Source: Hahella sp. CCB-MM4 (GTDB taxonomy: Bacteria; Pseudomonadota; Gammaproteobacteria; Pseudomonadales; Oleiphilaceae). From it: 64,000 bases of DNA. Position 1 is the first letter of the stretch. Each line of letters starts with the position of its first letter. Positions 324 to 22,258 of this stretch are shown here, in pieces. The DNA lies in assembly GCF_002260525.1 (NCBI RefSeq), contig NZ_MRYI01000001.1, forward strand, positions 1-64,000. The letters run 5' to 3'. The notes beneath the pieces are model-generated. The model was not told the origin of the DNA and made no database searches. It saw only the letters and a program-made list of their open reading frames with translations. A program made the translations under genes and the position numbers.

Positions 324-920
324 TTATTGTCTTGTTTTAGATTTATAAGCCTGCATGAATAATCGATTCATTTTATCATGATCATCTCCCTCATCTGCTG
401 TAGTCATCTGGTTTACATCACCTTCGGAGGGAGATGTAAATTCCATTTCCAGCAGCTTCTCCATTAAGGAGGAAATCACCTGATTTAAGGCAGGATTAGT
501 CGTGTTGCTTGAAACCCCTTGATTCAACAAGCTTTCACCATCGACCTTATTTCCAGATGAAAACGCAAGTATTCCACGTTTAAATAACACTAACGCTGAA
601 TCTGGAGGGAGTTGATCAAGAGATTGCCATGCGGACTCCGCAGCATTGACATCCCCGATGACAAATTTCACCAGACCTGATTGAAAGTGGGCATCCCATA
701 GTTGAGGCTCAAGTCCAACGGCTTCCTGCATAGTGGTATATGCTCTATCAAACATACCAAGCTCAGCATATTCAGCCCCCAGCATGTATACATTGCGAGG
801 ATTTTTATCCAATCCAACCGACTTTTTGAAATAAATCAGTGCTTTTTCATGATCATTATTTTCACTAGCCCTGATCCCAAGGAAGAAAAGCTCTTCGGAG
901 TCCAGAATATCAATAGTCAA
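324..920 (-). CDS. TPR-repeat protein, last gene of the flagellar operon
   Basis: This soluble protein of about 198 residues has tetratricopeptide-type helical repeats (NPRNVYMLGAEYAELGMFDRA, then SGLVKFVIGDVNAAESAW). The start chosen is TTG at 918-920, because a perfect AGGAGG (930-935) lies nine bases upstream. The longer ATG frame would overlap fliP by 47 bp and has no ribosome site. It directly follows fliP, and two further TPR genes open the same operon, so it may be a chaperone or assembly scaffold for the apparatus (inference). No signal peptide is seen from this start. Exact function unknown. Confidence 0.75.
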   Translation of the reverse strand: MTIDILDSEELFFLGIRASENNDHEKALIYFKKSVGLDKNPRNVYMLGAEYAELGMFDRAYTTMQEAVGLEPQLWDAHFQSGLVKFVIGDVNAAESAWQSLDQLPPDSALVLFKRGILAFSSGNKVDGESLLNQGVSSNTTNPALNQVISSLMEKLLEMEFTSPSEGDVNQMTTADEGDDHDKMNRLFMQAYKSKTRQ

Positions 921-933
921 ACCCAACAACCTC

Positions 934-1683
934 CTATAAAAAACTACCAACCAAAGAGTGCGCCACCAAGCTCCACCCATCGATCAAGACAAACATCAAA
1001 ATCTTGATCGGCAGAGAAAGAGTCAATGGAGGAACCATTATCATCCCCATAGACATTAGTACGCTGGCAACAACCAAGTCCACAAGCAGGAACGGAAGAA
1101 AAATTACAAACCCTATCTGAAAGGCCGTCTGAAGTTCAGACAACATGAAGGCTGTCACCAGTGTCACATTTGTGATGTCAGCAAAGTCTTCCGGTGGAGG
1201 TCCATCCTGCATATCCAGAACCATCGCCAGATCCTTTTCTTTCGTCTGCCTTATCATAAACTCCCGAAGTGGATTGACTGCCTCAGTTACTGCGATAGAA
1301 GCATCCAATTCCCCAGCAAGATAGGGGTTTAATGCCTGACTCTCCATTTGCTTTATGACAGGCATCATCGTGAAAAGGGTTAAAAACAACGCCAGCGAAA
1401 TCAGAACAGTATTCGGAGGGGTTTGCTGCATACCAAAGGCAAACCTGAGCATTGATAGCACTATAATGATTCGCGTGAAGGCTGTAAGTGCTATCAGCAA
1501 CGCGGGGGCGAGACTCAGGACGGTTAATACAGCCAGCACCTGCAACACCGTTGCTACTTGCCCCGGCTCAGCATCATTGACATTGGGCAGATTGAAATCG
1601 ATGGCTAACGTAGATGGTTCTGCTGCGTACCCCAGGGTAGGCAGGATTAAAAAAACAACAAATAGAGCAATCATTCTTATCAT
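934..1683 (-). CDS. fliP: Flagellar export gate protein FliP
   Basis: FliP forms the core pore of the flagellar type III export gate with FliQ and FliR. The 249-residue length is normal. A cleavable signal peptide (LPTLGYAAEP) is followed by the conserved membrane segment with the FTRIIIVLSMLRFAFG and QQTPPNTVLI signatures (about residues 68-95), a periplasmic loop (RQTKEKDLAMVL) and two C-terminal membrane helices. It sits five bases after fliO and just before the TPR gene. It is complete with key motifs intact. FliQ and FliR lie at the other end of the operon. Confidence 0.97.
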   Translation of the reverse strand: MIRMIALFVVFLILPTLGYAAEPSTLAIDFNLPNVNDAEPGQVATVLQVLAVLTVLSLAPALLIALTAFTRIIIVLSMLRFAFGMQQTPPNTVLISLALFLTLFTMMPVIKQMESQALNPYLAGELDASIAVTEAVNPLREFMIRQTKEKDLAMVLDMQDGPPPEDFADITNVTLVTAFMLSELQTAFQIGFVIFLPFLLVDLVVASVLMSMGMIMVPPLTLSLPIKILMFVLIDGWSLVAHSLVGSFL

Positions 1684-1688
1684 AAAAT

Positions 1689-2177
1689 TTATTCTTGCTC
1701 CGAACGCTTCTTTGAATCTTCATTGCTGCTATTAACTGCAGACATAGTGATATGATTTTGATTTTCCACTACAAGAAATTTTTGATTACTGACTTCCAAT
1801 ATATAGGCAAAAGTTTTGTTATTTAGCCGACGGTTGCTAATGTACTTTATATCGTCAGATGAATTGGGTACATGTCCCTGCTTTACCAGATATTTACGCC
1901 CAAACCAAAGCAAAGCTATCGCTCCGGCAGCCAACATACTCATCACTATATAAGCACTGCCCGGACCAGTAGCCGGACTCTGCTCTTTGAAGGGTAAATC
2001 CTGAATTTTAACTTTCCCCAAAGAGTTGGTGGATTGCCGATTCTCTTCACTCCCAGGAGAAAGTTCAGCGACACGACTAACTTCTTCATCGGGCAAAGCA
2101 GACTTTTCTGCACTTGCCCACAATGGACCAAATACCAAAGGCAAAACAACAAAGTATCTAATCCAACGAGCACTCAT
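1689..2177 (-). CDS. fliO: Flagellar export assembly protein FliO
   Basis: FliO is a small membrane protein that helps FliP assemble. The 162-residue product has an N-terminal signal or first membrane segment (YFVVLPLVFGPLWASA), a linker, a membrane helix (YIVMSMLAAGAIALLWFG, about residues 76-93) and a short cytoplasmic domain (ISNRRLNNKTFAYILEV...FLVVENQ) typical of the FliO family. Its start overlaps the fliN stop by four bases, indicating translational coupling. FliO is poorly conserved, so the call leans on topology plus the fliN-fliO-fliP order. Confidence 0.88.
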   Translation of the reverse strand: MSARWIRYFVVLPLVFGPLWASAEKSALPDEEVSRVAELSPGSEENRQSTNSLGKVKIQDLPFKEQSPATGPGSAYIVMSMLAAGAIALLWFGRKYLVKQGHVPNSSDDIKYISNRRLNNKTFAYILEVSNQKFLVVENQNHITMSAVNSSNEDSKKRSEQE

Positions 2178-2539
2178 TGACTCTGGATCTCAGTAATCTG
2201 TACTCCGAACACATCCCCTACTGCTACAAGCTTACCTCTGGCAACCGTTTTGCCATCCAACAGCAAATCGATTGGCTCATCCACCAACTTATCCATTTTA
2301 ACAACTGACTGCTCTTTCAAATGAGTGAGTTCATCAACAGTGAGAGTCGCTTTTCCTAACTCTACCGATAGGCTAACCTTTACATTCTTTACGAGCTCAA
2401 GTGGGTTTAGGTTGATACTCTTACAAGCTCCTTCCTCAACCAGATCTTCCAGAATCACTTCCTCTATTTTATTTGAAGCTCCAGATGCGGCAGAAACCTC
2501 ATCACTTTTCTCAAATCCTACTTCGTTTTCCGACATCAA
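2174..2539 (-). CDS. fliN: Flagellar switch/C-ring protein FliN
   Basis: FliN forms the base of the flagellar C-ring and docks the FliH-FliI ATPase complex. The 121-residue protein has a variable acidic N-terminus and a C-terminal SpoA domain (about residues 47-118: VSLSVELGKATLTVDEL...GKTVARGKLVAVGDVFGVQI). Length and domain are normal for FliN. It follows a short FliM-like gene across a 47 bp gap that contains three 18-bp tandem repeats. Key SpoA residues appear intact. Confidence 0.95.
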   Translation of the reverse strand: MMSENEVGFEKSDEVSAASGASNKIEEVILEDLVEEGACKSINLNPLELVKNVKVSLSVELGKATLTVDELTHLKEQSVVKMDKLVDEPIDLLLDGKTVARGKLVAVGDVFGVQITEIQSQ

Positions 2540-2548
2540 AATTAACCT

Positions 2549-2602
2549 TTTTAACTATCCAGCTTTATTTAATTATCCAGCTTAATTTAACTAACCAGCT
2601 TA
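2549..2602. repeat. Three tandem 18-bp repeats spanning the fliM-like stop codon
   Basis: Plus-strand copies at 2549-2566, 2567-2584 and 2585-2602 all contain a TTTAA..ATCCAGCTT core with few mismatches. The third copy covers the last codons of the fliM-like gene (KLVS-stop), and the other two lie in the fliM-fliN gap. The period is exactly 18, which suggests duplication of the gene's 3' end. Confidence 0.85.
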
Positions 2603-3348
2603 ATTGCTTTCCGTTCTCCAGATATTCCCAAGGTGCCTTTTAATAAAGGCTCTCCCCCACAAACCAGGACTGCAGGCTCTTCAAGGGGATGATCCAGACG
2701 AATAACATCCCCAACCTGAATCTCCAGTAGTTCGCCCAAAGTGAGTTCCAGTGGTATTAGCTCAGCGCTCATTTCCGCAACTAACTGTTTGCAACCACTG
2801 ACAACTGGCTCCAAATCACCAGATACCTTTTGGAGTAACGGCAACTGAAGTGAATCAGCCAATGAACTTACAATCGAGGGAGGAATGCAGAAACAGAACT
2901 TCATGTCTGCAACCATAATGAACCCGGTTAGCCAGCCAGATCCTGAGGTATGTTTAAATTCAGCACAGTCTTGTCCCTCCATGACAGTATTCCCGTTGGC
3001 TACCATCATGGAAAAATCCTTCGCCAACTTCTCCATCAGGTAACGACTAAGCTCACTGTCCACATCAGCATGGAGCGTGTCTTCCTTTGCTAGTTTCTGC
3101 AGGATAATCTGGCTATTTTCCCAAGCTAGGATTACCCCATTTTCGACTGCCAGGTTGTCACCCTTATCAATATATGTTTGGCAGGTATCGACATATCCAG
3201 GATGCTGATCCCCCTGAAACAATTCCATCGAAGGAACCTCTGCTTGACCAAACCAATTCTGATACCAACTTGTAACCTTTTCCAGCAAATGTCCTCTGAT
3301 TTTCTCAATGACGTTCTGGCGATAAAAAATAAAAGGACGCACAACCAT
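2587..3348 (-). CDS. Short, divergent FliM-like C-ring protein
   Basis: FliM forms the middle of the flagellar C-ring and binds CheY-P through an N-terminal EIDALL-type peptide. This protein has 253 residues (FliM is usually about 320-340) and starts MVVRPFIFYRQN, so the CheY-binding segment is absent. The C-terminal ~70 residues form a SpoA domain (LTLGELLEIQVGDVIRLDHP...LKGTLGISGERKAIKLV). The middle is only weakly FliM-like. It resembles SctQ/FliM proteins of non-chemotactic systems in build. It lies between flgE and fliN, overlapping the flgE stop by one base. The assignment rests on position and the SpoA domain. Confidence 0.7.
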   Translation of the reverse strand: MVVRPFIFYRQNVIEKIRGHLLEKVTSWYQNWFGQAEVPSMELFQGDQHPGYVDTCQTYIDKGDNLAVENGVILAWENSQIILQKLAKEDTLHADVDSELSRYLMEKLAKDFSMMVANGNTVMEGQDCAEFKHTSGSGWLTGFIMVADMKFCFCIPPSIVSSLADSLQLPLLQKVSGDLEPVVSGCKQLVAEMSAELIPLELTLGELLEIQVGDVIRLDHPLEEPAVLVCGGEPLLKGTLGISGERKAIKLVS

Positions 3349-5330
3349 TAGCGACCTCGAACGTTATTATATAGAGTTTCTATAAGTTCATTTGATACAT
3401 TCATAATCTGAGAACTTGCCTGGTAACCTCTCTGAATAATAATGATTTCGGCAAACTCACGGGATAACTCAACGTTCGACAATTCAATACTTTTACCTTG
3501 AATTTTCCCCAGCCCCTTTTCCCCGGCCTTGGCGATAAAACGACCTGCGCTTTTATCAGCTTTAAATAGCGTTTCACCAATACCAGTCAATCCATTAATG
3601 TTGACAAAATTCGCCAAAGCCACTGTTGGTCCATCAACGCTTTCGCCATTAGAGTAGTTTAAAGTCATCTGCCCACTCTCGTTGAAACTGTACGCTGTCA
3701 GCCGCCCAGCAGACCTTCCGTCTACATCGGCGATTTCCACACTGTTAATGCCGCTTAAAGACGTGAGACCTTCCAGAGATACCTCAAACTCGGAGACGGC
3801 AGATCCACTCCTATCTGCAATAGCAATACGAGGTCCTTCTACGGTGTTTCCATTTGTATAATGAATTTCAACAAAGCCTTCTTCCGTGAAATTTAATGAC
3901 TCGATATCTCCTTCATCAGTTCCATTAGCATCAAAACTAACAGAAGAAGCCGAGCCGGATATTTGAGTAAGGCTATTGGTGGTCGATTCATGAAACCTAA
4001 CCTGAATACTCAAAGTGCCTTCATCACTATCAGGAAAGGTAGCAGTCAGCACCCTGCTCTCTGCAGCCAATAGACCACTCTCTTCATAATTCAGAGCCAG
4101 AGGTCCGGCTAGCAACGTGCCACTTTCGTTCCTGAACACAACCTCCCACTCCTGGTCATCTTGTTTGGTGAATTCAGTATGTATTTCCATATGTGAACCA
4201 TCGGATTGAGTAATTTCGAAGGTTATTGCCGGATCACCTACCGCTGGCACGACACTTCCTATACTCAAATCCGGGTCCAGATTTCCAGATACTGATACCT
4301 GGTTAGTCGGCTGTGCGGGATTGGTGACCAAGTCTGAAATATTCAGATCTGTTAACGTTCCCTCGGTGCCAATGCCTGCAACACGAGACATATCAGAGGT
4401 GTTAACCAGGTAACCATCTTCTGTAAAACTAAATTGTCCACTCCCTACGAATTGGACATTCCCGCCAGTTTCATCTCTGGTGATAAAATAGACATCATCA
4501 CTCAAGGTAAAAGACTGTGTTCCTCCTGTGGTAAGATCACTGTCCGTAAAATTAAATTCACCAGGAAGAGTAAAAACCTCTTTCGTCTGTTCAGCCGTCT
4601 GTAACCGGTAGGGAAAATAGGAAACTGAATAGTTCTTATCTTCAGAGCGAATATGACCATCCGACGTAAAGTGAATGGCTTCTTTAGCACCTACAGGATT
4701 TCCAGACTGATCAATAAACTGCAGTGTCCATTGATTTCCTAGCTGTTTCTCAAATACCGCTTGTAACTTTCGAGCGGTCCCCAGATTATCAACAACATCG
4801 AATTCAAGCAGAGAATCCGCTCCGGAATTAACCGTCGATCCTGCCAGGGTCCCCGAATCCAGGTTTCCGGATAAAGATACTTGGGTGGTTTTTTCGGGCT
4901 CGGAATAAATAGAGTTCTTGATGGAGATATCCACCAGATTACCGCCACCATCAATTCCGGCAACCCTATAGCCGGTTTCAGGATCTATCAAGAATCCATT
5001 GGAGTCGAACTTAAATCCACCAGCTCTGGTATATAACTCCTCGCTTCCGGTCCTTAGAATGAAAAAACCCAAGCCATCAATAGCCAGATCAGTGTCATTC
5101 CCGGTTTCGGATATATCGCCGTTTTGGAACCGTAATTGAGAATCCTGAATTTTGGCTCCTTCGTTTCGGGTGGTATCTCCTTCGCTAAAGTTTGCCAGCT
5201 CAGAAAATCTGACATCACGTCCTTTATATCCGGGAGTATTCAGGTTTGACACATTGTTGCTGGAGTTTTCCAGAGCTTTGGAAAAAGACAGCAGACTGGA
5301 CAAACTTGAGTAAATAGATCCCATACTCAT
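3348..5330 (-). CDS. flgE: Flagellar hook protein FlgE, enlarged
   Basis: FlgE polymerises into the hook that joins basal body to filament. The N-terminus (SLLSFSKALENSSNNVSNLNTPGYKG) and C-terminus (GKSIELSNVELSREFAEIIIIQRGYQASS) are the conserved D0 rod/hook motifs. At 660 residues it is well above the usual ~400. The centre shows an internal duplication: residues ~80-225 (DGLGFFIL...YRVAGIDGGG...VSLSGNLD) match ~280-425 (...SRVAGIGTEG...VSVSGNLD), and a shorter motif recurs at ~478-508 and ~548-575. It is preceded by the hook-cap gene flgD, four bases away. Confidence 0.95.
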   Translation of the reverse strand: MSMGSIYSSLSSLLSFSKALENSSNNVSNLNTPGYKGRDVRFSELANFSEGDTTRNEGAKIQDSQLRFQNGDISETGNDTDLAIDGLGFFILRTGSEELYTRAGGFKFDSNGFLIDPETGYRVAGIDGGGNLVDISIKNSIYSEPEKTTQVSLSGNLDSGTLAGSTVNSGADSLLEFDVVDNLGTARKLQAVFEKQLGNQWTLQFIDQSGNPVGAKEAIHFTSDGHIRSEDKNYSVSYFPYRLQTAEQTKEVFTLPGEFNFTDSDLTTGGTQSFTLSDDVYFITRDETGGNVQFVGSGQFSFTEDGYLVNTSDMSRVAGIGTEGTLTDLNISDLVTNPAQPTNQVSVSGNLDPDLSIGSVVPAVGDPAITFEITQSDGSHMEIHTEFTKQDDQEWEVVFRNESGTLLAGPLALNYEESGLLAAESRVLTATFPDSDEGTLSIQVRFHESTTNSLTQISGSASSVSFDANGTDEGDIESLNFTEEGFVEIHYTNGNTVEGPRIAIADRSGSAVSEFEVSLEGLTSLSGINSVEIADVDGRSAGRLTAYSFNESGQMTLNYSNGESVDGPTVALANFVNINGLTGIGETLFKADKSAGRFIAKAGEKGLGKIQGKSIELSNVELSREFAEIIIIQRGYQASSQIMNVSNELIETLYNNVRGR

Positions 5331-5334: not shown

Positions 5335-5745
5335 TTACTCCCTCACAACAGTAATTTGAGAGGGGGAGATGCCTGTAATTGGCGTGTCATCTTCCGTCTG
5401 CAGTGTGAGTAGAGGATTACCATTATTGAAAGTAATGGTCGTTACCTTACCGATAGCAAAACCGTCACCATTATCTACCTGAACCGTCTTCCCGATTAGC
5501 CCAACGGACTGAGAAACTGCCTGCACATCCAGCAATCCTTCGATATTGTCGTTAGTCCGTGTTGCTGTTTCCAGTGACGAGAACTGAGCTAATTGTGCAA
5601 TGAACTCTCGATTATCAACTGGCTCCAAAGGATCCTGAAAGGTTAACTGCGTTAGGAATATTTGCAAAAAATCTTCAATCCCCACCGCATTTTGCCGTAA
5701 CGCTGTTGAGTCAGAGTTAATTCGACCGATTGATTCTACAGCCAT
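5335..5745 (-). CDS. flgD: Hook-capping scaffold protein FlgD
   Basis: FlgD caps the growing hook during assembly. The 136-residue product has the conserved N-terminal motif (DFLQIFLTQLTFQDPLEP, residues ~25-42) and the downstream FIAQLAQFSSLE segment. It ends with a short version of the FlgD domain, so it is smaller than the usual ~220 residues and lacks much of the Ig-like part. Its start overlaps the stop of the upstream gene by one base and flgE follows within five bases, so the three are translated together. Confidence 0.93.
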   Translation of the reverse strand: MAVESIGRINSDSTALRQNAVGIEDFLQIFLTQLTFQDPLEPVDNREFIAQLAQFSSLETATRTNDNIEGLLDVQAVSQSVGLIGKTVQVDNGDGFAIGKVTTITFNNGNPLLTLQTEDDTPITGISPSQITVVRE

Positions 5746-6425
5746 TATCTATTTACTCCTTTGTGTTTAACGTCCGCCAGGGATCGACCATTTAACATGA
5801 CTTTTTCAACTTCAAAATCGGTATCTTTAATCGCATCGGATATCAACGCCAATAGCTCTTCCGCTTTAGATACACTGGGTTGCTGATAGTCTCTTATCCA
5901 TACTGTCAGTTTGTTACCAAGGCGAGTTAAATGAATATTGGTTAATGAGTACCGACTACCAAGTTTTGAGATCTGCGTGACTAAATTGGAATATACATCC
6001 TTATCAACGGCATCTTTCGAGGTTTGGTTACCGTACACTCGCTCTCGCTCACTAACGCCATAAGCAGCAGATTGATTCAGCATCCTTACCGGGTGATTAA
6101 CTTTAAGGGTGCGAGAGTTAGGGACCACGTTTTCCTTAATGCTATTGATAAAATGCGCGTACTCGATATCCACCAATGGGGCAACGTCAGATATGCCTGC
6201 TTTACTTCCTGAAACTTGAATTGACTGGTGCGGCTGCCCGGAAAAATTATCACTACCTGCCTCTTCTTCAGTATTGGCTTCATGAGCCATAGTAATATCG
6301 TGATTACTTTCCAATTCCGAAGTCCATTTCTGTTTGAACAACGAACTGTTCTGCATATGACCACCACTTATTAGCTCGCCCGCTAAAAACTCACCGCTTC
6401 CATCCACTTTCATCATAGATATCAC
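5745..6425 (-). CDS. Putative hook-length control (FliK-type) protein
   Basis: This 226-residue soluble protein lies between fliJ and flgD, where many flagellar operons carry fliK. The first ~140 residues are polar and low in order, as in FliK secreted rulers. The last ~80 form a compact region (YSLTNIHLTRLGNKLTVWIRDY...ELLALISDAIKDT) that is reminiscent of FliK/YscP C-terminal substrate-switch domains but lacks their classic signature. No signal peptide or membrane segment is seen. Function is inferred from position and build; it could be an unrelated accessory protein. Confidence 0.5.
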   Translation of the reverse strand: MISMMKVDGSGEFLAGELISGGHMQNSSLFKQKWTSELESNHDITMAHEANTEEEAGSDNFSGQPHQSIQVSGSKAGISDVAPLVDIEYAHFINSIKENVVPNSRTLKVNHPVRMLNQSAAYGVSERERVYGNQTSKDAVDKDVYSNLVTQISKLGSRYSLTNIHLTRLGNKLTVWIRDYQQPSVSKAEELLALISDAIKDTDFEVEKVMLNGRSLADVKHKGVNR

Positions 6426-6465: not shown

Positions 6466-6912
6466 TCATAACTTTTGAGAACGCCTCAGCTCACTAAGCT
6501 CCGTATCCAACTTGTTATTCCTTAGAGCTTCTTCGCTCGCGATTACAAGTTTTTTTCTTTTATCCAGCTCTTCACGCCTGCGTCTTAACAGCGCGACGTC
6601 CAGCCTATGCTCCTGTAAAGCTTCATGCATTTCTTCCATCAACCCTGCAACCTCATTCCGTCTGAAGTTGAGTTCTTTCAGAACTCCCTGTATCAGAATC
6701 AAATCATTTATGTCACAAGCAGCTCCAGGGGTCTGAAATTTCCGTAGGGCTATCTCGCTATATTCAATTTCCGTATCAATTCTCTGAATCTTATTCACTA
6801 ACGCCGAATACTGTTCATGCAATGCTTGAACTTGCTCTAATTCACGAAATAATTTTATAGAGGTTGTCGTGCGGGTAATTTCGAGAGCTTTGATTCGACG
6901 TTTGGCACTCAT
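6466..6912 (-). CDS. fliJ: Flagellar export chaperone/coiled-coil protein FliJ
   Basis: FliJ is the central stalk of the flagellar export ATPase. The 148-residue protein is nearly all helix with long coiled-coil heptads (ELEQVQALHEQYSALVNKIQ, later LDVALLRRRREELDKRKKLV), strongly charged, without membrane segments. It sits six bases after fliI, the usual order fliH-fliI-fliJ. FliJ sequences diverge widely, so the call rests on coiled-coil build, size and order. Confidence 0.9.
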   Translation of the reverse strand: MSAKRRIKALEITRTTTSIKLFRELEQVQALHEQYSALVNKIQRIDTEIEYSEIALRKFQTPGAACDINDLILIQGVLKELNFRRNEVAGLMEEMHEALQEHRLDVALLRRRREELDKRKKLVIASEEALRNNKLDTELSELRRSQKL

Positions 6913-6918: not shown

Positions 6919-8226
6919 CTACCCTAGTACCGACCGAAGTGCTTGCTTAAGCGCAGGAGTCCTGTTTGAGGCAACTTTGACGTCCTCTGAAATGAAGTTC
7001 ATCAACGATCTATGCACTTTAATAGCACGATCTATTTCGACATCAGAACCCTCAGTGTATGCACCAAGCTCTATAAGTTCTTTTGATTCCCGGAATAGAC
7101 TCTCGTACTTAATAATGCTCTGAACAATTTTTTGATGTTCAGGGTCATTTATCCTTTTATACAGCCTGCTCAGACTCTCGAGAATATCTATCGACGGGAA
7201 AACCCCCTGGTTTGCAAGTTGCCGGGTCAGCACAATATGTCCATCCAGTATCGACCTTACGGTATCTGACACGGGTTCATTAAAATCATCTCCTTCAACC
7301 AGAACCGTGTACAGTGCGGTAATCGCACCGCCAACTTTAAATTTTCCCGCCCTTTCCGTTAGTTGGGGCAATAATGAGAAAGTTGAAGGCGTATATCCTC
7401 TCGAGGTGGGCGGTTCACCTACTGCGAGACCAATTTCCCTTTGAGCAGTGGCTAACCTGGTAATGGAATCCATGTAGAGCATGACATCTTTACCACAGTC
7501 GCTAAAGTATTCTGCAATAACCGTTGCGACAAAAGCCGCATGCAATCGCACCAGTGCAGGTTCATCAGCTGTTGCAACCACAACGATACTCTTTTTAAGG
7601 CCTTCTGTGCCCAGGTTATCCTCAATGAACTCGATAACCTCTCTGCCCCGCTCTCCAATTAAAGCAATTATATTGACATCAGCTTCGCATCTTCTTGCGA
7701 TGTTCCCCAAAAGAGTACTTTTACCCACGCCGCTTCCTGCAAATATTCCAATCCGCTGTCCTTTTGCCAGAGAACAAAATCCATCAATAGCATTAATTCC
7801 TGTATGCAACTTTTCATTAGCAGGAACTCTATCGAGCGGATTAATTGGAGACCGGTACAATGGCATTAATTTTCCAGGTTCGATATCTGAGCCATCTAGT
7901 GGTTGGCCAAAAGCGTCAACGACTTTCCCCAAAAGGCTTTCGGACACAGAGACACTGGCAGGCATACCGGAAGCAATAACCTCGCTCCCAACATGTATTC
8001 CTGACACGGGCCCTAAAGGCATCAGCAAAACTCGTCCATGGCGGAAGCCCACAACTTCGGCCATGACAGAAGTCATATCATGGGGTGCAAATACTTCACA
8101 AACCTCCCCCAAAAATGCATCAGGTCCAATACATTCGAGAACCGCCCCATAGAATTGCTCGACCTTGCCGGTTCGGCGGACCGTTTCACAATTTTCGATA
8201 ATTGACGCCAATCCGGAAGAATCCAT
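6919..8226 (-). CDS. fliI: Flagellar export ATPase FliI
   Basis: FliI is the cytoplasmic hexameric ATPase that assists export. The 435-residue protein has a Walker A motif (AGSGVGKSTLLG, about residues 163-174), the catalytic-site glutamate region (ALIGERGREVIEF), a Walker B segment (DVMLYMDSITRLA) and the family signature for F1-type/T3S ATPases (PTSRGYTPSTFSLLPQLTERAG). It lies between fliH and fliJ with two- and six-base gaps. All key residues are present. Confidence 0.98.
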   Translation of the reverse strand: MDSSGLASIIENCETVRRTGKVEQFYGAVLECIGPDAFLGEVCEVFAPHDMTSVMAEVVGFRHGRVLLMPLGPVSGIHVGSEVIASGMPASVSVSESLLGKVVDAFGQPLDGSDIEPGKLMPLYRSPINPLDRVPANEKLHTGINAIDGFCSLAKGQRIGIFAGSGVGKSTLLGNIARRCEADVNIIALIGERGREVIEFIEDNLGTEGLKKSIVVVATADEPALVRLHAAFVATVIAEYFSDCGKDVMLYMDSITRLATAQREIGLAVGEPPTSRGYTPSTFSLLPQLTERAGKFKVGGAITALYTVLVEGDDFNEPVSDTVRSILDGHIVLTRQLANQGVFPSIDILESLSRLYKRINDPEHQKIVQSIIKYESLFRESKELIELGAYTEGSDVEIDRAIKVHRSLMNFISEDVKVASNRTPALKQALRSVLG

Positions 8227-9498: not shown

Positions 9499-9500
9499 AG

Positions 9501-13219: not shown

Positions 13220-13797
13220 ATCAAACCAACTTTGGTAAGTACCCAATAGATAATTCCGCGGTCATCAGTGTCACCAATTAAACCAACACCATCGTACTCA
13301 ATTTTTGCATCAGAGATTCGTGTGGATAGCACCGTGTTTTGAGAGGAAATATCTTCGTCTCTAATCCATCCAGACAATTTGATAGATTGCTCCTCGCCAT
13401 TAATCGTTATTTTCTGGTCCCCCCAAATGTGGAAACGACCATTATTATCGGTCTCCAATATCGCCACAGTGATTCGCGCTTTTAACTCACCTTCTCGTTG
13501 AGTACTACCACCGGAGTTTCGTCCAATCCCTAACTCCAGGCTTCCGCTATCTGATCTGTTGCTCTTTGAAAATGATCCAGAGGCCTCCAGCGATTGGTTT
13601 ACCTGTGCATCCGTACTGGCACCTGCTTTTGCAGATTCAACGATCAATACAGTGACATTGTCCCCCACCTGAAATGCCTTCCTGTCAGAAGTCAGAGGCC
13701 TAAAAGCCGACTCATCAAAGAGGCTTTCTGCATAGACATCAACGCAAAAACAAATAGCGAATGAAATAAAAACTACAAAAGACAACCGCTTAATCAT
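13216..13797 (-). CDS. flgH: Flagellar L-ring protein FlgH without a lipobox
   Basis: FlgH forms the outer-membrane L ring and is normally a lipoprotein. The 193-residue product has the FlgH body (VGDNVTVLIVESAKAGAS..., LKARITVAILETDNNGRFHIWGDQKITINGEEQSIKLSGWIR, STRISDAKIEYDGVGLI). Its leader (SFAICFCVDVYAES) has cysteines at 16 and 18, but neither is preceded by an L-[AS]-[GA] lipobox, and cleavage after VYA by signal peptidase I looks more likely. Its start overlaps the flgA stop and its own stop overlaps flgI. Confidence 0.94.
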   Translation of the reverse strand: MIKRLSFVVFISFAICFCVDVYAESLFDESAFRPLTSDRKAFQVGDNVTVLIVESAKAGASTDAQVNQSLEASGSFSKSNRSDSGSLELGIGRNSGGSTQREGELKARITVAILETDNNGRFHIWGDQKITINGEEQSIKLSGWIRDEDISSQNTVLSTRISDAKIEYDGVGLIGDTDDRGIIYWVLTKVGLI

Positions 13798-15567: not shown

Positions 15568-16275
15568 CTAAAACTTTCCTAACGTGGAAATCGATGTGCT
15601 AATAGAAGACTCATACGCCTTTAAAACATTGTGAGTCATCCGATAATGCTGGGTAAGCTCAACCATGTTTACGACTTCTTCCATTGTGTTCACGTTGGAG
15701 ACTTCTATAAACGATTGCAAAACCTGAGCATCTTCAGATTCTGAAGATTGCATGTCAGCATCCGCGATGAAAGTACCTGCGCCTATAGAACGCAAATTCT
15801 GTTGTTCAGTAAAACTGACGATCTTAAGTCGATCTATACTGTTTCCCTCACTGATCACAGTGCCATTCCGAGTTATTTCAAATTGCTCGGAGTTCAACTG
15901 AATCGGCCCCGCATGGCCCATTAGATAGGCCCCATTTGGCAAAGCCAGTTTACCGTCTGTAGTCATTGTCAAGCGACCGGACCTGGTGTACTGGATCACG
16001 CCTTCCTTTTCTCCAACAAAATACCCATCGCCCTCGATAGCCAGATCCAGAAAGTGGCCGGTAGGCTTGATGGCCCCCTGGGAATGATCCTTTGCGACGG
16101 TAAGCCTGTCCTGATTCTCCATATCACTGGAAATGATCTTTGAAAAAGGTTGGGATATCAGTTTGTCGCTCTTATACCCAGGGGTTTCAACATTTGCCAG
16201 GTTTTGACCTATGGTCCTTAATCTAAGCAAATCAGCGTTTAACGTAATCTGTATCGCCTCAACCAATTCACTCAT
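15568..16275 (-). CDS. flgF: Flagellar proximal rod protein FlgF
   Basis: This 235-residue rod-family protein has the N-terminal motif (LRLRTIGQNLANVETPGYKSDKL), a core region (LDLAIEGDGYFVGEKEGVIQYTRSGRLTMTTDGKLALPNGAYLMG) and the C-terminal SFIEVSNVNTMEEVVNMVELTQHYRM. It precedes flgG, so FlgF is the best call. Its start overlaps the flhA stop by four bases. Confidence 0.88.
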   Translation of the reverse strand: MSELVEAIQITLNADLLRLRTIGQNLANVETPGYKSDKLISQPFSKIISSDMENQDRLTVAKDHSQGAIKPTGHFLDLAIEGDGYFVGEKEGVIQYTRSGRLTMTTDGKLALPNGAYLMGHAGPIQLNSEQFEITRNGTVISEGNSIDRLKIVSFTEQQNLRSIGAGTFIADADMQSSESEDAQVLQSFIEVSNVNTMEEVVNMVELTQHYRMTHNVLKAYESSISTSISTLGKF

Positions 16276-18371
16276 CTTTCATTCCTTTTTTCATATCTGT
16301 TTTCGCCGCTACCCAGCAAGCCTCTTTCCAATTCAACAATCCCGAATGACTTGATGTTCAGGCCACTGGGGATCTCAGATAGAGAAAGAACGCTCAGGCC
16401 GGGCAACAGACGCGTAGTTAGCTTCTTCAAATGTGGTCGAAGACTTGGTGATGATATGAGTACTGGCTCAAGACCATCCGCCATCATCTGCTCCACGAGC
16501 TTTGCCAATTTGGTCAGAACCTGTTCAGTGAGTTTTGGGTCCACAAATAAGGAGCCGCCTTCCTCAGTCACTTTCAGGCCACTTTGAAATACCTGCTCCA
16601 CTCCAGGATCAAAACTGATCACGTATAGAAAGTTATCCTGAGAAACCAGTTTTTGACATATTTCCGCCCCAAGCTTTTGGCGAACCAGCTCAGTTAACTG
16701 AACATGGTCTTTTACCCTCTTACCTACATCTACCAAAGTCTCAGCAATTAGTTCAATGTTTCGGATAGAGACTCTCTCTGCGAGTAAGTTTTGCAAAATA
16801 CGCTGAATATCGCTCAGCGTGAGAGTATTTGGTATCAGATCGTCATAGAGTGTTGGTTGGGCGACTCTAACCCGCATCATTAATTTTTCAGATTCGGATC
16901 TGGAAATGAGCACAGGTGCCTTGCCCCTTAATGCTTCACTGAAATGAGTCAGTAATACCGTCAACGGGTCAACTAGTGTGCAGTTTAATGATTTTGCCAA
17001 GTCTGCTTCCGATTCACTAATCCACACAGCGGGCAGGCCATAGGTAGGATCCAGTGCTTTTATGCCAGGGAGCTTGTCCCCCATATCGTGTGCACTAATT
17101 GCGAGGAGCCTGTCTGCTATCAGCTCACCATTTGCTACACAGACCCCATGCAGACAAATTTTGTAGGCATTACTTTTGGAAGCCCCATCCTGTATGATTT
17201 TTACTTTGGGTAATACAAGCCCGAGCTCGAAAGCAAACTGTTTTCTGAAACGATCGATTTCGTCCATTAACTTGCCTTCGTTCTCTCCAAAGAACGTAAT
17301 AATATCTGAGCCTAACGCCACCTCAATCGGCTCAACCTTTAACTCTTCATAGAGAGACTTTTCTTCATCTTCAGATTGTTCTTCAACAACGTCCATCTGA
17401 GTGGAGTTTTTCTTATATGCAAAGAAAGCCAAGCTGCCAAAAATCGTTGCGACAGCAAGTACAGGAAACAAAGGAATTGCCGGTAGAGATAAAAGTAACA
17501 ACAGCCCCAAAACAACAATGACTAAAGTTTTCGGGTATTGTGTGATCTGGTTCGATATTTCACTTCCAAGATGGGCATCTGTGGCGGCTCTTGTAATGAT
17601 AATGCCCGTCGCGGTCGAAATAACCAGAGCAGGGATCTGGGTAACGATACCGTCACCTACGGTCAGCAATGTATATGTATGTAATGCGTCGCTCCAACTT
17701 AAGTCCATCTGAGCAACGCCAATCGTCAGACCGCCAATAATATCAATCAGTATTATTAATATCCCAGCAATCGCATCTCCTTTTACGAATTTACTGGCAC
17801 CATCCATTGCTCCGTAAAAGCTGGCCTCTTTCTCAATCGTCTGACGTCTCTCACGAGCCTCAATTTCATTAATCAGCCCCATGTTCATGTCAGCATCAAT
17901 ACTCATCTGCTTGCCAGGCATGCTATCAAGCGTGAATCGTGCAGCGACTTCAGCCACTCGCTGAGCACCACTTGTCACTACGACATACTGAACAACAATA
18001 AGAATTAAAAAAACGACGAGGCCAATCACATAGTTGCCACCAACCACGTATGTCCCAACAGCATTTATCACATTGCCCGCATCGCCTTCCGAAAGGATCA
18101 ATCGAGTTGCTGCAATGTTGAGAGAAAGCCGAAATAGCGTAGCTATCAGCAGCAGGGAGGGAAATGTAGAAAACCCCAGAGGCTTATCGACAAAAAAGGT
18201 CAGCAACAACAACATCAAACCAAAACTGAAATTGGTAATGAGCAGGAAGTCAAGGAGCTGCGATGGAATTGGCGTGAATAGGACCAATAATATTCCAACC
18301 ATACCTAACACAAGGCTAAATTCACTTCGTGTTCCCAAAAAGGTTGAAAATGATGTCTTAGTACTACTCAT
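16272..18371 (-). CDS. flhA: Flagellar export apparatus protein FlhA
   Basis: FlhA is the large export-gate protein; its cytoplasmic nonamer ring receives substrates. The 699-residue protein has about eight membrane helices in the first ~320 residues and the family signature (RVAEVAARFTLDSMPGKQMS then IDADMNMGLINEIEARERR), followed by a linker and the soluble domain (VLLTHFSEALRGKAPVLISRSE). The start overlaps the flhB stop (ATGA) by four bases. Full length and intact. Confidence 0.98.
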   Translation of the reverse strand: MSSTKTSFSTFLGTRSEFSLVLGMVGILLVLFTPIPSQLLDFLLITNFSFGLMLLLLTFFVDKPLGFSTFPSLLLIATLFRLSLNIAATRLILSEGDAGNVINAVGTYVVGGNYVIGLVVFLILIVVQYVVVTSGAQRVAEVAARFTLDSMPGKQMSIDADMNMGLINEIEARERRQTIEKEASFYGAMDGASKFVKGDAIAGILIILIDIIGGLTIGVAQMDLSWSDALHTYTLLTVGDGIVTQIPALVISTATGIIITRAATDAHLGSEISNQITQYPKTLVIVVLGLLLLLSLPAIPLFPVLAVATIFGSLAFFAYKKNSTQMDVVEEQSEDEEKSLYEELKVEPIEVALGSDIITFFGENEGKLMDEIDRFRKQFAFELGLVLPKVKIIQDGASKSNAYKICLHGVCVANGELIADRLLAISAHDMGDKLPGIKALDPTYGLPAVWISESEADLAKSLNCTLVDPLTVLLTHFSEALRGKAPVLISRSESEKLMMRVRVAQPTLYDDLIPNTLTLSDIQRILQNLLAERVSIRNIELIAETLVDVGKRVKDHVQLTELVRQKLGAEICQKLVSQDNFLYVISFDPGVEQVFQSGLKVTEEGGSLFVDPKLTEQVLTKLAKLVEQMMADGLEPVLISSPSLRPHLKKLTTRLLPGLSVLSLSEIPSGLNIKSFGIVELERGLLGSGENRYEKRNER

Positions 18372-19477
18372 ATAGCGGCCCCATATGGCGTGCCAGTTTG
18401 CCCACCCAGAGTTCTCTTCAGCCTATATGCCTTACGAAGAGCTCTCGCAACTCCCATATAGGCAGTTTCCGGAATATTTTTATCAATCCCGACTTTTCGA
18501 TAAAGGTATCGGGCAAGGGGAGGATCCTCAACAATGTGCACACGGTGTCGTCTGGCAACTGCCTTAAGATGCAAAGCCATCGCGTCTACCCCTTTACCAG
18601 TCACCTTTGGAGCCACCATGCTTTGCGGATCATACTTGATCACTACTGCATAATGCTCAGGGTTGGTAATAATCACATCAGCATTTTCAATGCTGCTGAC
18701 AGAGGCGCTCCTCTTACGAAGTTCACGCTCTAACTCCCGTCTTTTTGATCGGACCATTGGATCGCCTTCCCGGCGCTTAATCTCGTCCTTTACTTCCTTC
18801 TTAGTCATACGCATATTGCGTATAAATTCCCTGCGAACAAATAGAAAGTCCGCAATGGAAATCACAATCAGCGCTATCGATAACTTCAGAATCAAAGAAC
18901 CCAGCTGAGCGGAAATAAAAGGAATAGCGTTGGAAGCCCCCGTTTGTGTAAGCCCAAACGAATATGGCAGAAAACTTTTCACGCAGTAATAAATGATTGT
19001 TCCAAGGAGCAAAAGCTTGATTACATTCTTCAGGAGCTCAAATAGTATCTTTATAGAGACCAGCCGCTTGAATCCTTCAATAGGGTTAATTCGCTTGATA
19101 TCAGGCTTTACCGGATGAAAAGAGAGGACTGGACCGATCTGAATTAATACAGCAACTACACCTGCCAACATAGTCATTAAAAATAAAGGACTGAGAATTC
19201 CAACAACCTCGCTTACAATCCACTTGCTCCAACCACTTACGGTTTTGATATCAAAGGGAATAGATCCTGATACATCAAATAATCGGCTACATACTTTTAG
19301 AAAGTCTCTGGCCAATTCTGGAGCCATCGACCAAAGCAGAACCACGGACACCAAGAGTCCTACCACATGAGAGACTTCCATGCTCTTCGCTACGCCTCCC
19401 TTCTTTCTCGCTTCCTGTAATTTATGGGGCGAGGGTGGCTCAGTCTTTTCTGATTTATCGGGTTGGGACTCTGCCAT
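18368..19477 (-). CDS. flhB: Flagellar export switch protein FlhB with NPEH site
   Basis: FlhB switches export from rod/hook to filament substrates after self-cleavage between Asn and Pro of an NPTH motif. The 369-residue protein has the N-terminal EKTEPPSPHKLQEARKKGGVAKS signature, four membrane helices and a cytoplasmic tail. The cleavage site reads ITNPEHYAVVIKY: N272-P273-E274-H275, with Glu in place of Thr. Asn-Pro and His remain, so cleavage may still occur. The gap to fliR is 40 bp. Confidence 0.97.
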   Translation of the reverse strand: MAESQPDKSEKTEPPSPHKLQEARKKGGVAKSMEVSHVVGLLVSVVLLWSMAPELARDFLKVCSRLFDVSGSIPFDIKTVSGWSKWIVSEVVGILSPLFLMTMLAGVVAVLIQIGPVLSFHPVKPDIKRINPIEGFKRLVSIKILFELLKNVIKLLLLGTIIYYCVKSFLPYSFGLTQTGASNAIPFISAQLGSLILKLSIALIVISIADFLFVRREFIRNMRMTKKEVKDEIKRREGDPMVRSKRRELERELRKRSASVSSIENADVIITNPEHYAVVIKYDPQSMVAPKVTGKGVDAMALHLKAVARRHRVHIVEDPPLARYLYRKVGIDKNIPETAYMGVARALRKAYRLKRTLGGQTGTPYGAAI

Positions 19478-19516
19478 ATTTCATTACTACTGTTACTACT
19501 CGATATAAACTTAATT

Positions 19517-20287
19517 TCAGGCAGCGGTAATCACTTGATCCCAATATCGAAATACGCTCGAAATCACCTCAGATATCAAAGGCATCATATATTTAAGCGA
19601 CAGAGCCGTCATACCTATTCCCAGAGCCACTTTTAACGGTAGAAATATAAAGTACACATTCATCTGAGGCATGGTCTTTCCCATTACCGCGAGACCTGCA
19701 TCGACAAAAAACAACACTGCCAAAACCGGCGCTGCAATCGTCATTCCTAAAAGAAACATCAGACCATAATGATGTAGAACGGCGGAAAAATTCATCCCCC
19801 CACCCCAACTACCGAGGGGAACCTGCTGAACACTGAAGACCAGTCCTTTCAACAACAGATGATGTCCATCAACTGAGAAAAACACAAAAGCAGCCACAAA
19901 TAACAACAATGTTCCGATTAGAGGATCAGCAGAATTCGTGGCGGGATTAAGGAGACTCGCAGCACCAAAACCTGACTGAAAGTCAATCATGCGACCAGCT
20001 ACCTGAAAAGCAGAAAAAGCCGCATGTAAACCTAGAACCAGCATAACGCTGAGAACCAACTCACCAGTCAGCCCCAAAAGCATCTCAATCAGTGTTTCAG
20101 GCATAGGGGTAACAGCGGAAAAATTGGCACTAATCAACAACGCCGAGAGGACCACTATCAACATTAGACGGAAACGACCAGGTACGCGCCCAAATAAATC
20201 AAGAACGGACAAATAGAATATGGTCGACATACGAACACTTAATAGAGCAACCGACCATATCCACCCCATGTCAAATTGAAAAGTCAT
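19517..20287 (-). CDS. fliR: Flagellar export gate protein FliR
   Basis: FliR is the third core gate protein. The 256-residue membrane protein has about six helices, with the FliR features VLSALLISANFSAVTP, LGLHAAFSAFQVAGRMIDFQSGFGAASLLNPATN and the late DAGLAVMGKTMPQMNVYFIFLPLKVALG motif. It follows fliQ by eight bases and precedes flhB, the standard fliQ-fliR-flhB order. Intact. Confidence 0.97.
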   Translation of the reverse strand: MTFQFDMGWIWSVALLSVRMSTIFYLSVLDLFGRVPGRFRLMLIVVLSALLISANFSAVTPMPETLIEMLLGLTGELVLSVMLVLGLHAAFSAFQVAGRMIDFQSGFGAASLLNPATNSADPLIGTLLLFVAAFVFFSVDGHHLLLKGLVFSVQQVPLGSWGGGMNFSAVLHHYGLMFLLGMTIAAPVLAVLFFVDAGLAVMGKTMPQMNVYFIFLPLKVALGIGMTALSLKYMMPLISEVISSVFRYWDQVITAA

Positions 20288-20294
20288 AATGATC

Positions 20295-20561
20295 TCAGAA
20301 ATACACAGGGATATTTTTTATCAGAGTGCTTGCAAATACAGTCAATGTAGCAAGCATCCATGGCCCCAATATAAATAAAACGACAACTACCGCTGCTATT
20401 TTGGGAACAAAAGTCAGCGTCATTTCTTGTATTTGGGTAATTACTTGAAAAATACTGATGACAAGACCGACTACCATTGCCACTCCCAAAATTGGAGCAG
20501 ATATCATAATGGCAGCCCACAACATATCATTTGTCAGTTGCATCGCCTGGTCAATTGTCAT
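20295..20561 (-). CDS. fliQ: Flagellar export gate protein FliQ
   Basis: FliQ is a small gate protein with two membrane hairpin helices. The 88-residue product starts MTIDQAMQLTNDMLWAAIMI, then PILGVAMVVGLVISIFQVITQIQEMTLTFVPKIAAVV, which is the family signature, and WMLATLTVFASTLI. It is normal in length and sits between the TPR gene and fliR. Confidence 0.97.
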   Translation of the reverse strand: MTIDQAMQLTNDMLWAAIMISAPILGVAMVVGLVISIFQVITQIQEMTLTFVPKIAAVVVVLFILGPWMLATLTVFASTLIKNIPVYF

Positions 20562-20573
20562 GAGCGCTGCCCC

Positions 20574-21710
20574 TTAAGCTATGATGAAGCCACTAAGATA
20601 ATCTGTAAGCTTCTTGCCACTTTCATCCACCGGGGAGTTCAGCAAAGACAAGATAATTTCCGAGGCTTTTTGCTCATTTCCAGAAATGTGGTCGCACAAT
20701 GCCTGAGCAAAAAAACCTGAAAAATTGGCCTTATCCAGCCTAATAGCTTTTTTTGCGTTTAACCGCGCACTTTCAATATTCCCAGCAAATAATTCAACAA
20801 CTGCTAAAGCGCCGTATGTCTCCCCAAACCCGCGGTCCAGTTCGATTGCCTTTTCACAACAATCCATTGCACCTTGAAGGTCACTCAACAAAATTCTGCA
20901 CCAGGCCAAAGCATTCCAAGACCCTATGTGGCCAGGCATATATGAGAGCCCTTTGACAAACTGCGCTTCAGCCATAGCCAATTCTTCACGCCTCATACTT
21001 AGTAACGCTTGCCCTATCCATAGGCGACCGGAATCACTTTTGACATCCAATGCCCTGCTTATCAGAGCCTGGGCATCATCGAATTCCATATCTGCCATAT
21101 TGCAATAGGCTAACACCCCAAGAGCATTCGCCTCATCCGGGCTCAGTGCCAATACTTTATCAGCATAGAATTTGGCTGCCTTATAGTCACTCTGGTCGAG
21201 CTTGCAAGATGCCAATAGCGAAAGAGCTTCCACCGATTCCGCATCCAACCCCAATGCTTCCTGTAAACATTCCTCGACATTGTCCAACGCCCTTAAAAAG
21301 TATTGGATGCGGGCCATCAGAATTGGAAACCTAATGTTGTCTCGATTCTCTTGGTAGCAGGTTTCGAGATATGAGAAAGCTTCTTGCGGACTACTGCGCA
21401 TCAAACAACAGTATGCCGTAAGGTATAAAACCTCCCCGTCAGTTTCACCTTGAGACAATATTTGCTTCAGATTTCCCTCAGCGGCACCAAAGTCACCTGT
21501 CGACATGAACAAGAGAGACTCTTCATATAGAACGCCAGGATGCGATGGATATAACTTCTTCACCGTTTCAAGATGATTCGTTAGAGATTCAATATCCCCC
21601 AACAAACTAAGTTGACGAATCAAGTCGAGGTGAAGAGAAATATTTTGAGGATCCTGAATGAGAAATTTCTTCAGACGTCCGACTCTATCCTTAATTTCGG
21701 TAACGAGCAT
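20574..21710 (-). CDS. TPR-repeat protein, second gene of the flagellar operon
   Basis: This 378-residue soluble protein is built of about nine tetratricopeptide repeats; clear units include SVEALSLLASCKLDQSDYKAAKFYADKVLALSPD and IGSWNALAWCRILLSDLQGAMDCCEKAIELD. It lies 12 bases upstream of fliQ and directly after another TPR gene. No signal peptide or membrane helix is seen, so it should be cytoplasmic. TPR proteins act as type III chaperones and as scaffolds; here that is inference from context. No specific family was recognised. Confidence 0.85.
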   Translation of the reverse strand: MLVTEIKDRVGRLKKFLIQDPQNISLHLDLIRQLSLLGDIESLTNHLETVKKLYPSHPGVLYEESLLFMSTGDFGAAEGNLKQILSQGETDGEVLYLTAYCCLMRSSPQEAFSYLETCYQENRDNIRFPILMARIQYFLRALDNVEECLQEALGLDAESVEALSLLASCKLDQSDYKAAKFYADKVLALSPDEANALGVLAYCNMADMEFDDAQALISRALDVKSDSGRLWIGQALLSMRREELAMAEAQFVKGLSYMPGHIGSWNALAWCRILLSDLQGAMDCCEKAIELDRGFGETYGALAVVELFAGNIESARLNAKKAIRLDKANFSGFFAQALCDHISGNEQKASEIILSLLNSPVDESGKKLTDYLSGFIIA

Positions 21711-21721
21711 AAAACTCTCTA

Positions 21722-22258
21722 TCAGTTGATCTTTTGGCTATCGAATCGAGGGGCTGCAACAGAGCCAGAATTTGCATTACTATCCAGAGCATTCAACAAG
21801 TCTTTGCTCCTCTTAAAATATAGATTATCTGCGGGGGCAGACTTCAAGAGAATATCGATCAACCTCCTTGCCTCGGACTCATCGCTATCTTCCCATGAAA
21901 CCAACGCGCAGTAGTATAACGCAGGCGGAAAAGTCGGAACCTCATCCAGCACCTCTTTCCATACAAGAAGAGCTCTGTCCTTGATTCCTTGCTCATAATA
22001 AACCATTCCGTACTGGAACCGCTCCAACAAGGCATCCGGTTGTTTCATTAAGTAGCTTTCGTAATGGTATGATGCCCTGTCGAATAGGTTTAGCTGAGCA
22101 TATAGTTTAGCCAGCAGTGAATCACACTCGGGCTGGGGGTCAGGCAAGTTATTCGCTTGCTTCAATTTTGCCAATGCGGAATCGATACGATTTTTTTCAA
22201 CGTCCAACTTGGCCAAAGCCAACAATTCGTCACTTTCAAAGAGAGACAAGTCCAGCAT
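21722..22258 (-). CDS. TPR-repeat protein, first gene of the flagellar operon
   Basis: This 178-residue soluble protein has about four tetratricopeptide-like repeats (CDSLLAKLYAQLNLFDRASYHYESYLMKQPD; FQYGMVYYEQGIKDRALLVWKEVLDEVPTFPPALYYCALVSWED). It is the promoter-proximal gene of the 26-gene minus-strand run, with a weak AAGGA about 12 bases before its ATG. Together with its neighbour and the TPR gene at the far end, it frames the apparatus genes. Function unknown; chaperone or assembly role is inference. Confidence 0.8.
   Translation of the reverse strand: MLDLSLFESDELLALAKLDVEKNRIDSALAKLKQANNLPDPQPECDSLLAKLYAQLNLFDRASYHYESYLMKQPDALLERFQYGMVYYEQGIKDRALLVWKEVLDEVPTFPPALYYCALVSWEDSDESEARRLIDILLKSAPADNLYFKRSKDLLNALDSNANSGSVAAPRFDSQKIN

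Follow-up and report, generated by a model that had tools for sequence, protein, structure and literature searches.

What is a flagellar hook-basal body for when no motor or filament comes with it? We address this question for a gene cluster of Hahella sp. CCB-MM4. The window is the whole stretch of DNA analyzed, the first 64 kb of the 805-kb contig C1 (NZ_MRYI01000001.1), in a source genome of 6.66 Mb (label G000). On its minus strand, 27 head-to-tail open reading frames (ORFs), mostly with overlaps or small gaps, run unbroken from 22258 to 324, and the rod, the hook, the P and L rings, and the export gate are all encoded among them. A sequence-only reading of the window had described a basal-body and export run of 26 genes; the run stands, and the count becomes 27. 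It had left two options: a secondary flagellum that draws on distant parts, or a non-rotating secretion or hook apparatus derived from a flagellum. Our results favor the second, and we put at about 75% the probability that the cluster encodes a non-rotating, flagellum-derived type III exporter, probably for giant proteins of the Rhs type.

The missing motor, the short FliG, and the carriers

Genome-wide profile searches located the rotary parts elsewhere in the source genome. FliG_C exceeds its cut-off once, on C118, where a canonical flagellar set with a real FliG lies; flagellin-type genes do so on C85 and C107, and MotA_N matches fall on C35 and C118. None of the three is over cut-off on the cluster's contig. 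A torque-domain FliG, a MotA stator, and a flagellin filament are thus not part of the cluster's own set, which agrees with the sequence-only reading of the run, and the second flagellar set that it had proposed to look for is the canonical one on C118. That reading had also allowed that the missing genes might lie beside the left edge. The source contig begins there; in G001, G002, G004, and G006, four relatives, the last gene of the run (TPR_A, for a small tetratricopeptide repeat, or TPR, protein) is followed by the start of a giant gene and no motor genes. FlgK and FliD were not noticed in the cluster, and no genome-wide search was made for FlgK, FliD, or FlgJ. A fourth flagellin-type gene of about 300 amino acids (aa), with an incomplete Flagellin_N match, was seen at C107:87574-87930, and a like gene occurs in five other Hahella genomes.

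At the place of fliG, the cluster has a gene (9025..9522, minus strand) for a protein of 165 aa, and members of its family span 141 to 288 aa, versus about 340 for a full FliG; two longer frames are ORF artefacts and are left out of this range. By family profile and by the model of a family member, this gene is predicted to encode a shortened FliG that has the N-terminal and middle domains and lacks the FliG_C torque domain. A profile built from 56 members, of which 52 come from the 69 loci of this kind introduced below, matches 68 of the 69, and the one missed (L099) ends just past FliF; in the same proportion of loci (68/69), the torque domain is absent from the cluster's FliG. The profile also reaches all nine true FliGs of the set, more weakly (2e-8 to 0.002), with the best of them scoring as strongly as the weakest short-FliG member (L118, 8e-8), and it covers a true FliG up to about residue 190. 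Comparison of the short FliG with FliG by hhalign gives a probability of 92% (E of 5e-7), and a search of PDB sequences gives FliG as its first 13 matches, the best (7e-08) spanning residues 10-172 of Aquifex FliG. A model of the Thiodiazotropha member L073 from a 53-row alignment reached a predicted local distance difference test score (pLDDT) of 88.8; its first 15 fold matches are FliG, with a best Foldseek E-value of only 0.005, and for the FliG domain in the FliG-FliM complex of H. pylori the fit is 1.5 A across 74 columns. An earlier model from 7 sequences was unusable (pLDDT of 43). Pfam matches in 53 members are all weak, MgtE_N in 18 and FliG_M, FliG_C, or FliG_N in 3 to 4. Taken alone, the window protein has no FliG match by profile searches, so its identity as FliG comes from its family. 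Apparent FliF-FliG fusions in L090 and L096 are most likely frame artefacts of ORF calling in GC-rich DNA.

The rest of the C ring is also unusual. The FliM-like protein (253 aa; 2587..3348, minus strand) has only a FliMN_C domain in Pfam, as in two relatives; PF02154, which the canonical FliM of the source genome matches at 4.3e-73, is not recognized in it. Beside it lies fliN (2174..2539, minus strand; PF01052, 2.7e-20). The small FliM-like gene and three TPR genes are counted in the run; the sequence-only reading had remarked that the C-ring genes are small or unusual and that TPR genes flank the run.

The cluster is not peculiar to one strain. A search with FliF in 58 genomes, source genome included, gave close homologues in G006 (80%), G001, G002, G004 (49%), G044 (38%; from a different family of the order), and G003 (33%), and all six have the same core order of genes; ordinary FliF aligns with the cluster's FliF over the N-terminal half only, at about 30%. 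In G003 and G044, the small genes that diverge most were identified by place only, and fliQ and TPR_C have no match in the G044 cluster. The cluster of G003 further contains a 989-aa gene (L063:3593-6562) that, by eye, appears to join a glycosyltransferase to an amylase-type enzyme.

GTDB genomes were then scanned by pattern and FliF profile, and the best 80 of at least 304 confirmed loci were kept; all locus counts refer to these 80. This kind of cluster accounts for 69, ordinary flagella with a full FliG for 9, and 2 are undecided. Of the 69, 54 have the core order flgF-flgG-flgI-fliE-fliF-fliI-flgE-fliP in full, 48 with flhA ahead, and 0 of the 11 others have it; elsewhere among the 69 it is interrupted by contig ends, poor ORF calls in GC-rich DNA, or moved export genes (relocated in L077, L078, L087, and L107). 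FliL, MotC, FlhF, and canonical FliM have no match in any of the 69. Hosts include Methylobacillus, Duganella, Massilia, Undibacterium, Ramlibacter, Variovorax, Burkholderia, Ralstonia, Pandoraea, Vibrio, Pseudomonas, Stenotrophomonas, Parendozoicomonas, Thiodiazotropha, and Legionella, so that the family spans Beta- and Gammaproteobacteria and others, although the loci were picked by FliF similarity and their unity is partly due to that selection. Among 369 genomes sampled evenly from the class, 4 have the short FliG, source genome included; most other profile matches there are in frames of about 330 to 370 aa, the length of true FliG, and a few in frames of 465 to 480 aa, which we take to be the size of MgtE. 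A gene for a FliA-like sigma factor is present in 47 of the 69 loci, and a conserved protein of about 120 aa (e.g., L159:6855-7232) lies near the sigma gene and TPR_A in some 20, and weakly in G003, with no convincing Pfam match in four members scanned.

A tree of the export ATPase FliI separates 70 rows of this lineage from nine flagella and from the three SctN ATPases of the type III secretion systems (T3SS) of the source genome with support of 100/100; the program flags long branches (G003, L094, and the genome's own C118) and uneven composition. By this phylogeny, the cluster's FliI is a lineage of its own. Both the separate ATPase lineage and the shared gene order are outcomes that the sequence-only reading had suggested looking for. 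The three SctN come from a wider complement: FHIPEP matches five loci in the source genome, namely, the canonical flagellum on C118, this cluster, and three more (one on C129 and two on C74) that look like injectisome-type T3SS, as read from their short, SctJ-like FliF homologues. These sets lie at C129:51461-64681, C74:259823-282935, and C74:332300-350130.

Missing motor and filament genes, together with a flgI split on the plasmid of Undibacterium YM2 and a seemingly split flhA and flgI in L127, might instead be taken as signs of a secondary flagellum in decay. The common gene order and short FliG across Beta- and Gammaproteobacteria speak against decay, as does retention of the cluster as the only FlhA system in six genomes, and we hold this reading to be the least probable of those weighed here.

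The carriers themselves bear on rotation. We searched 56 carrier genomes: the seven from the Hahella order, plus 49 out of another 50 (all but L117). FliG_C is present in 44 and was not found in 12, with completeness not given for 49 of the 56. These 12 are Ramlibacter (4), Variovorax (5), Caenimonas koreensis, Lacisediminimonas profundi, and Legionella maceachernii, and genome-wide searches found neither Flagellin_N nor MotA_N in the same 12; MotA_N was found in 6 of 6 comparison carriers. In half of them (G062, G071, G072, G074, G075, and G086) the single FlhA/SctV found lies on the cluster's contig, while two are present in G066, G082, G083, and G099 and three in G068; the count of zero in G085 is due to a contig that starts at FliF. 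With FliG_C, flagellin, and MotA all missing, rotation and a filament seem impossible in these 12 genomes, yet the cluster is kept, and by its gene content its machine can hardly be a rotary flagellum there.

This result bears on the other option left by the sequence-only reading, a secondary rotating flagellum that borrows its FliG torque domain, stators, and filament from a canonical set elsewhere. The source genome does offer such a set, with FliG, MotA, and flagellins, and the cluster's FliF retains a conserved C-terminal tail at the place that we take to be the FliG binding site. However, a dozen carriers have nothing to borrow, which refutes borrowing for the family unless the assemblies miss all three components, and a borrowed FliG would presumably find the FliF site occupied by the short FliG. 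We therefore consider a borrowing flagellum very improbable; the carriers without rotary parts, the short FliG, and the separate FliI lineage bear out the non-rotating apparatus. Separately, a second full-length FliG and flagellin-type genes share one contig in G060:C18, G064:C12, G065:C61, and G087:C5, perhaps an additional complete flagellum in these Duganella, Massilia, Oxalobacteraceae, and Janthinobacterium carriers.

Giant Rhs-type proteins and their N-terminal motif

If the apparatus does not rotate, what might it export? A giant YD-repeat gene stands beside the cluster in 29 of 54 carrier genomes, as judged from fetched flanks of 4 to 40 kb each, and none occurs in 39 control stretches, of which 20 come from ten carriers and 19 from the source genome, the window included. 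We regard 29/54 as the fair figure, because a flank test of 9/20 versus 0/20 (p of 0.0012) is biased by the choice of its ten genomes after the flank result was known, nine of them being Rhs positive. Sixteen of 18 adjacent giants checked have a common N-terminus, MVAIVSGNxLGLxxxSLxxLG...GEQAYVNxATGNLVLQxxD...RTYNSQG. In 80 genomes searched, a profile of this motif finds 54 of 59 carriers, each with a best E of ≤6.3e-15, and 0 of 21 noncarriers, save for a partial match (3e-5, positions 40-71) in G056; outside the 16 seed genomes, 38 of 43 carriers are positive. In 32 genomes, the distance from the motif to FliF or to the short FliG is 7 to 54 kb. Carriers are interrelated, so p-values overstate independence. 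Viewed by eye only, the motif does not look like a Sec signal, and its profile has no convincing relative in the PDB.

Most of the giants are Rhs/YD-repeat proteins; two of them match PF05593 at 2e-165 and 7.4e-80, and those of G004 and Pseudomonas MRCP1333 carry RHS repeats and a LysM domain. In G004 one giant separates the cluster from a sigma-factor fragment, with a weak match (0.014) to the adjoining small protein, and a second copy of the motif adjoins TPR_A. RHS repeats as such were rejected as a marker of the cluster, being present in all 57 genomes searched, including G005. This Hahella genome without the cluster, the sole within-genus contrast, has RHS repeats, and the motif was not found in it.

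The window itself probably starts inside a giant motif-bearing gene, to judge from its first bases. Positions 22 to 1, ATGGTTGCGGTCGTAACAGGAG, read MVAVVTG, seven codons only, at the place after TPR_A where the motif starts in G001, G002, and G006.

Plasmids played no part in deriving the motif. A FliF match is present in 55 plasmid records, and we examined the two best (L291 and L292), from Undibacterium sp. YM2 (175 kb) and Variovorax sp. PDNC026 (1.24 Mb). Both clusters have a short FliG, a sigma factor, and a small protein of about 120 aa, and both adjoin a motif-bearing giant, with the Variovorax motif in a neighboring frame. The YM2 giant is annotated as a tandem-95 repeat protein, has 12.9 kaa (thousand aa), and starts with the motif segment (9.5e-23 in a one-sequence search). 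One N-terminus on giants of different bodies fits the behavior of a targeting signal. A tblastn search of 72,556 plasmid records at 1e-5 gives the full motif in one, that of Variovorax.

The association could also be incidental. A complete hook-basal-body gene set might build a hook-only appendage, an anchor or adhesive stalk that does not need the giants, which would leave by another route and merely travel along. That the motif lies only away from the cluster in 22 positive carriers, and that RHS repeats are found with or without a cluster, fit such independence. Nevertheless, it is the N-terminal segment, not RHS repeats as such, that tracks the cluster, the two plasmids included, and we judge the hook-only appendage unlikely.

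Several observations weigh against an exporter of giants. We infer export by the cluster from sequence. In 22 of the 54 positive carriers the motif was found solely on a different contig or at a distance of over 54 kb, and it was not found in the carriers G000, G059, G095, G102, and G104; the miss in G000 is probably due to the contig edge, and the other four have no explanation. The adjacent Rhs giant of G079 starts without the motif, and the one in G105 is divided between two frames, of which the upstream bears the motif. The noncarriers are all relatives of Hahella, so descent confounds the motif contrast. Three plasmids (two of Eleftheria and that of Undibacterium KW1) match the second half of the motif only; two of them were opened, and neither has an annotated flagellar gene up to 15 kb away, their chromosomes not having been searched. 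A recognized toxin domain (TNT) ends only 1 of 9 giants. A gene start upstream of the giants was found in 14 of 30 loci, and these 14 readable stretches yielded one loose FliA-type (sigma-28-like) promoter match. Finally, chains of 4 to 7 thousand residues, and up to 12.9 thousand, far exceed the flagellar substrates known to us.

Giving these points their weight, we still prefer the exporter, which might work as follows. The export gate, ATPase complex, rings, rod, and hook would form a channel through the envelope. The short FliG would bind FliF and FliM, linking the MS ring to a FliM/FliN sorting platform that stays static, with no stator contact. The common N-terminal segment of the giants would be the export signal, and the chain would enter N-terminus first, perhaps aided by the TPR proteins as chaperones. 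Threaded unfolded through gate, rod, rings, and hook, the giant would reach the hook tip, the usual site of filament growth, and be either displayed or released there, and its variable C-terminus may be a toxin or adhesin for neighboring cells.

More broadly, we are inclined to see here a third major branch of type III systems beside the flagellum and the injectisome: a motorless hook-basal body with a torque-less FliG that would export giant Rhs/YD (and tandem-95) proteins via a dedicated N-terminal signal, for use against or to bind other cells, over Beta- and Gammaproteobacteria and also on plasmids. The link of Rhs proteins and their motif to a motorless flagellar cluster is new here; within the open full-text literature, with subscription papers outside that scope, no report was found of an Rhs protein tied to such a cluster.

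Gene layout of the window

All features of the run are on the minus strand and are given in order of transcription. It opens with two TPR genes recognized by Pfam, TPR_C (178 aa; 21722..22258), in the same place in G001, G002, G004, and G006, and TPR_B (378 aa; 20574..21710), kept in relatives. Then come fliQ (20295..20561), fliR (19517..20287), and the export switch flhB (18368..19477), named from homology to the genome's own canonical proteins and from order, and the export gate gene flhA (16272..18371; PF00771, 4.2e-235; TIGR01398, 1e-225). The rod and ring genes follow as flgF (15568..16275), flgG (14787..15557), flgA (13794..14777; TIGR03170, 2.9e-25), flgH for the L ring (13216..13797), flgI for the P ring (12092..13246), flgB (11695..12075), flgC (11288..11695), and fliE (10986..11291); all of these but flgA are named from orthologues and from an order as on plasmid pUYM01. 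Next are fliF for the MS ring (9501..10934; TIGR00206, 2e-66; its C-terminal tail is conserved in alignment), the short-FliG gene, fliH (8228..9025; PF02108, 5e-12), and the export ATPase gene fliI (6919..8226; TIGR01026, 4.2e-165; also placed by the tree). The fliJ-position gene (6466..6912) is weakly conserved, and the fliK-position gene (5745..6425) has orthologues in most relatives and no Pfam match; both are named by position. The hook cap gene flgD (5335..5745; order as on pUYM01, with orthologues in relatives) and flgE for the 660-aa hook protein (3348..5330; TIGR03506, 1.9e-78; Pfam FlgE/F/G domains) precede the FliM-like gene and fliN. A fliO-like gene (1689..2177; TIGR03500, 1.7e-07), the export gate gene fliP (934..1683; TIGR01103, over cut-off), and TPR_A (324..980, true start perhaps about 923; Pfam TPR, kept in relatives) close the run.

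Profiles thus support FliP, FliN, FliF, FliI, FlhA, an FlgE/F/G-type hook protein, FlgA, FliH, and the C-terminal domain of the FliM-like protein. FlhA and FliN are slightly under the NCBIfam cut-offs and over those of Pfam, and FliO is far under its cut-off. The remaining names come from reading of the ORFs, homology to the genome's canonical set, and the order in an annotated plasmid cluster, that of pUYM01 from Undibacterium sp. YM2, where a near-identical gene order is annotated with fliH outside the run. TPR_A, a possible chaperone, has only generic TPR matches among solved structures, so its identity as a class II chaperone is unsupported.

Beyond TPR_A, a GC-rich inverted repeat followed by a T run (48-105, minus strand), terminator-like by eye, precedes the seven codons of the probable giant Rhs-type gene (1..22, minus strand; direct reading), at which the contig ends. 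On the other side of the cluster, positions 23260-39217 hold surface polysaccharide genes, for capsule synthesis and of the Wzz/tyrosine-kinase type by Pfam, with sugar-nucleotide and flippase-like genes seen by eye.

Comparison with known systems

The cluster resembles a flagellar hook-basal body in its export gate, ATPase, MS, P, and L rings, rod, hook, and cap, and in the FliA-like sigma factor of many loci. It departs from a flagellum in having no torque domain, stator, or filament, in its short FliG and FliM-like protein, and in its own FliI lineage. Two further systems were considered and set aside. Flag-3 of Enterobacterales, as far as its block order is given in the source, includes fliG, motAB, and fliC and hence is a complete flagellum. 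The hat-like structure of the flagellar type III secretion system (FT3SS; PMC9380563) is, in the part of the report drawn upon, an inner-membrane structure of species with an ordinary FT3SS and does not match.

The nearest export experiment to this cluster is that in the non-flagellated Lysobacter enzymogenes OH11 (PMC7277350); we found none for the cluster itself. According to the passages drawn upon, the FT3SS-like genes of OH11 lack fliC, fliD, flgKL, fliG, fliM, and motAB, and the set exports heterologous flagellin in dependence on flhB and fliI (PMC7277350, PMC9927559). The same passages report OH11 to be without flgB and fliE, both present in the cluster, and its genes not to lie in an operon; they mention no Rhs protein, and the two sets are compared by description, not by sequence (PMC7277350, PMC9927559). 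Stenotrophomonas ginsengisoli (L116, Lysobacteraceae) carries the cluster, so kinship with the Lysobacter FT3SS is possible.

With injectisomes, including the Myxococcales type, the cluster would share a flagellum-derived, non-rotating mode of export. It differs in that its FliI stands apart (100/100) from the three SctN of the source genome, the sole injectisomes in the tree. In place of a secretin, the cluster encodes flgI and flgH, no search having been aimed at secretins. Needle and translocon proteins were not noticed in the cluster, and no search was aimed at them. Unlike the Myxococcales type, which reportedly lacks FlgBCDEK, FliEG, and FlgH in the portion of the source consulted (PMC3459982), the cluster retains rod, hook, and L ring genes.

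The giants, for their part, resemble the Rhs/YD-repeat polymorphic toxins of the type VI secretion system (T6SS) and other systems in their RHS_repeat and DUF6531 domains and, in one case, a C-terminal TNT toxin domain. The N-terminal PAAR domain of T6SS Rhs effectors was not found in the G004 giant, the one scanned whole; a second giant scanned lacks its start. Unlike other Rhs/YD toxins, they have an N-terminus that tracks the cluster and also heads a tandem-95 giant. If our reading is true, giant Rhs proteins gain a dedicated exporter, very large proteins gain a candidate export signal, and the part of FliG that is retained where torque is not needed comes to light. The cluster would then be a natural flagellum turned pure secretion machine with rod, rings, and hook kept, which bears on the origin of the injectisome.

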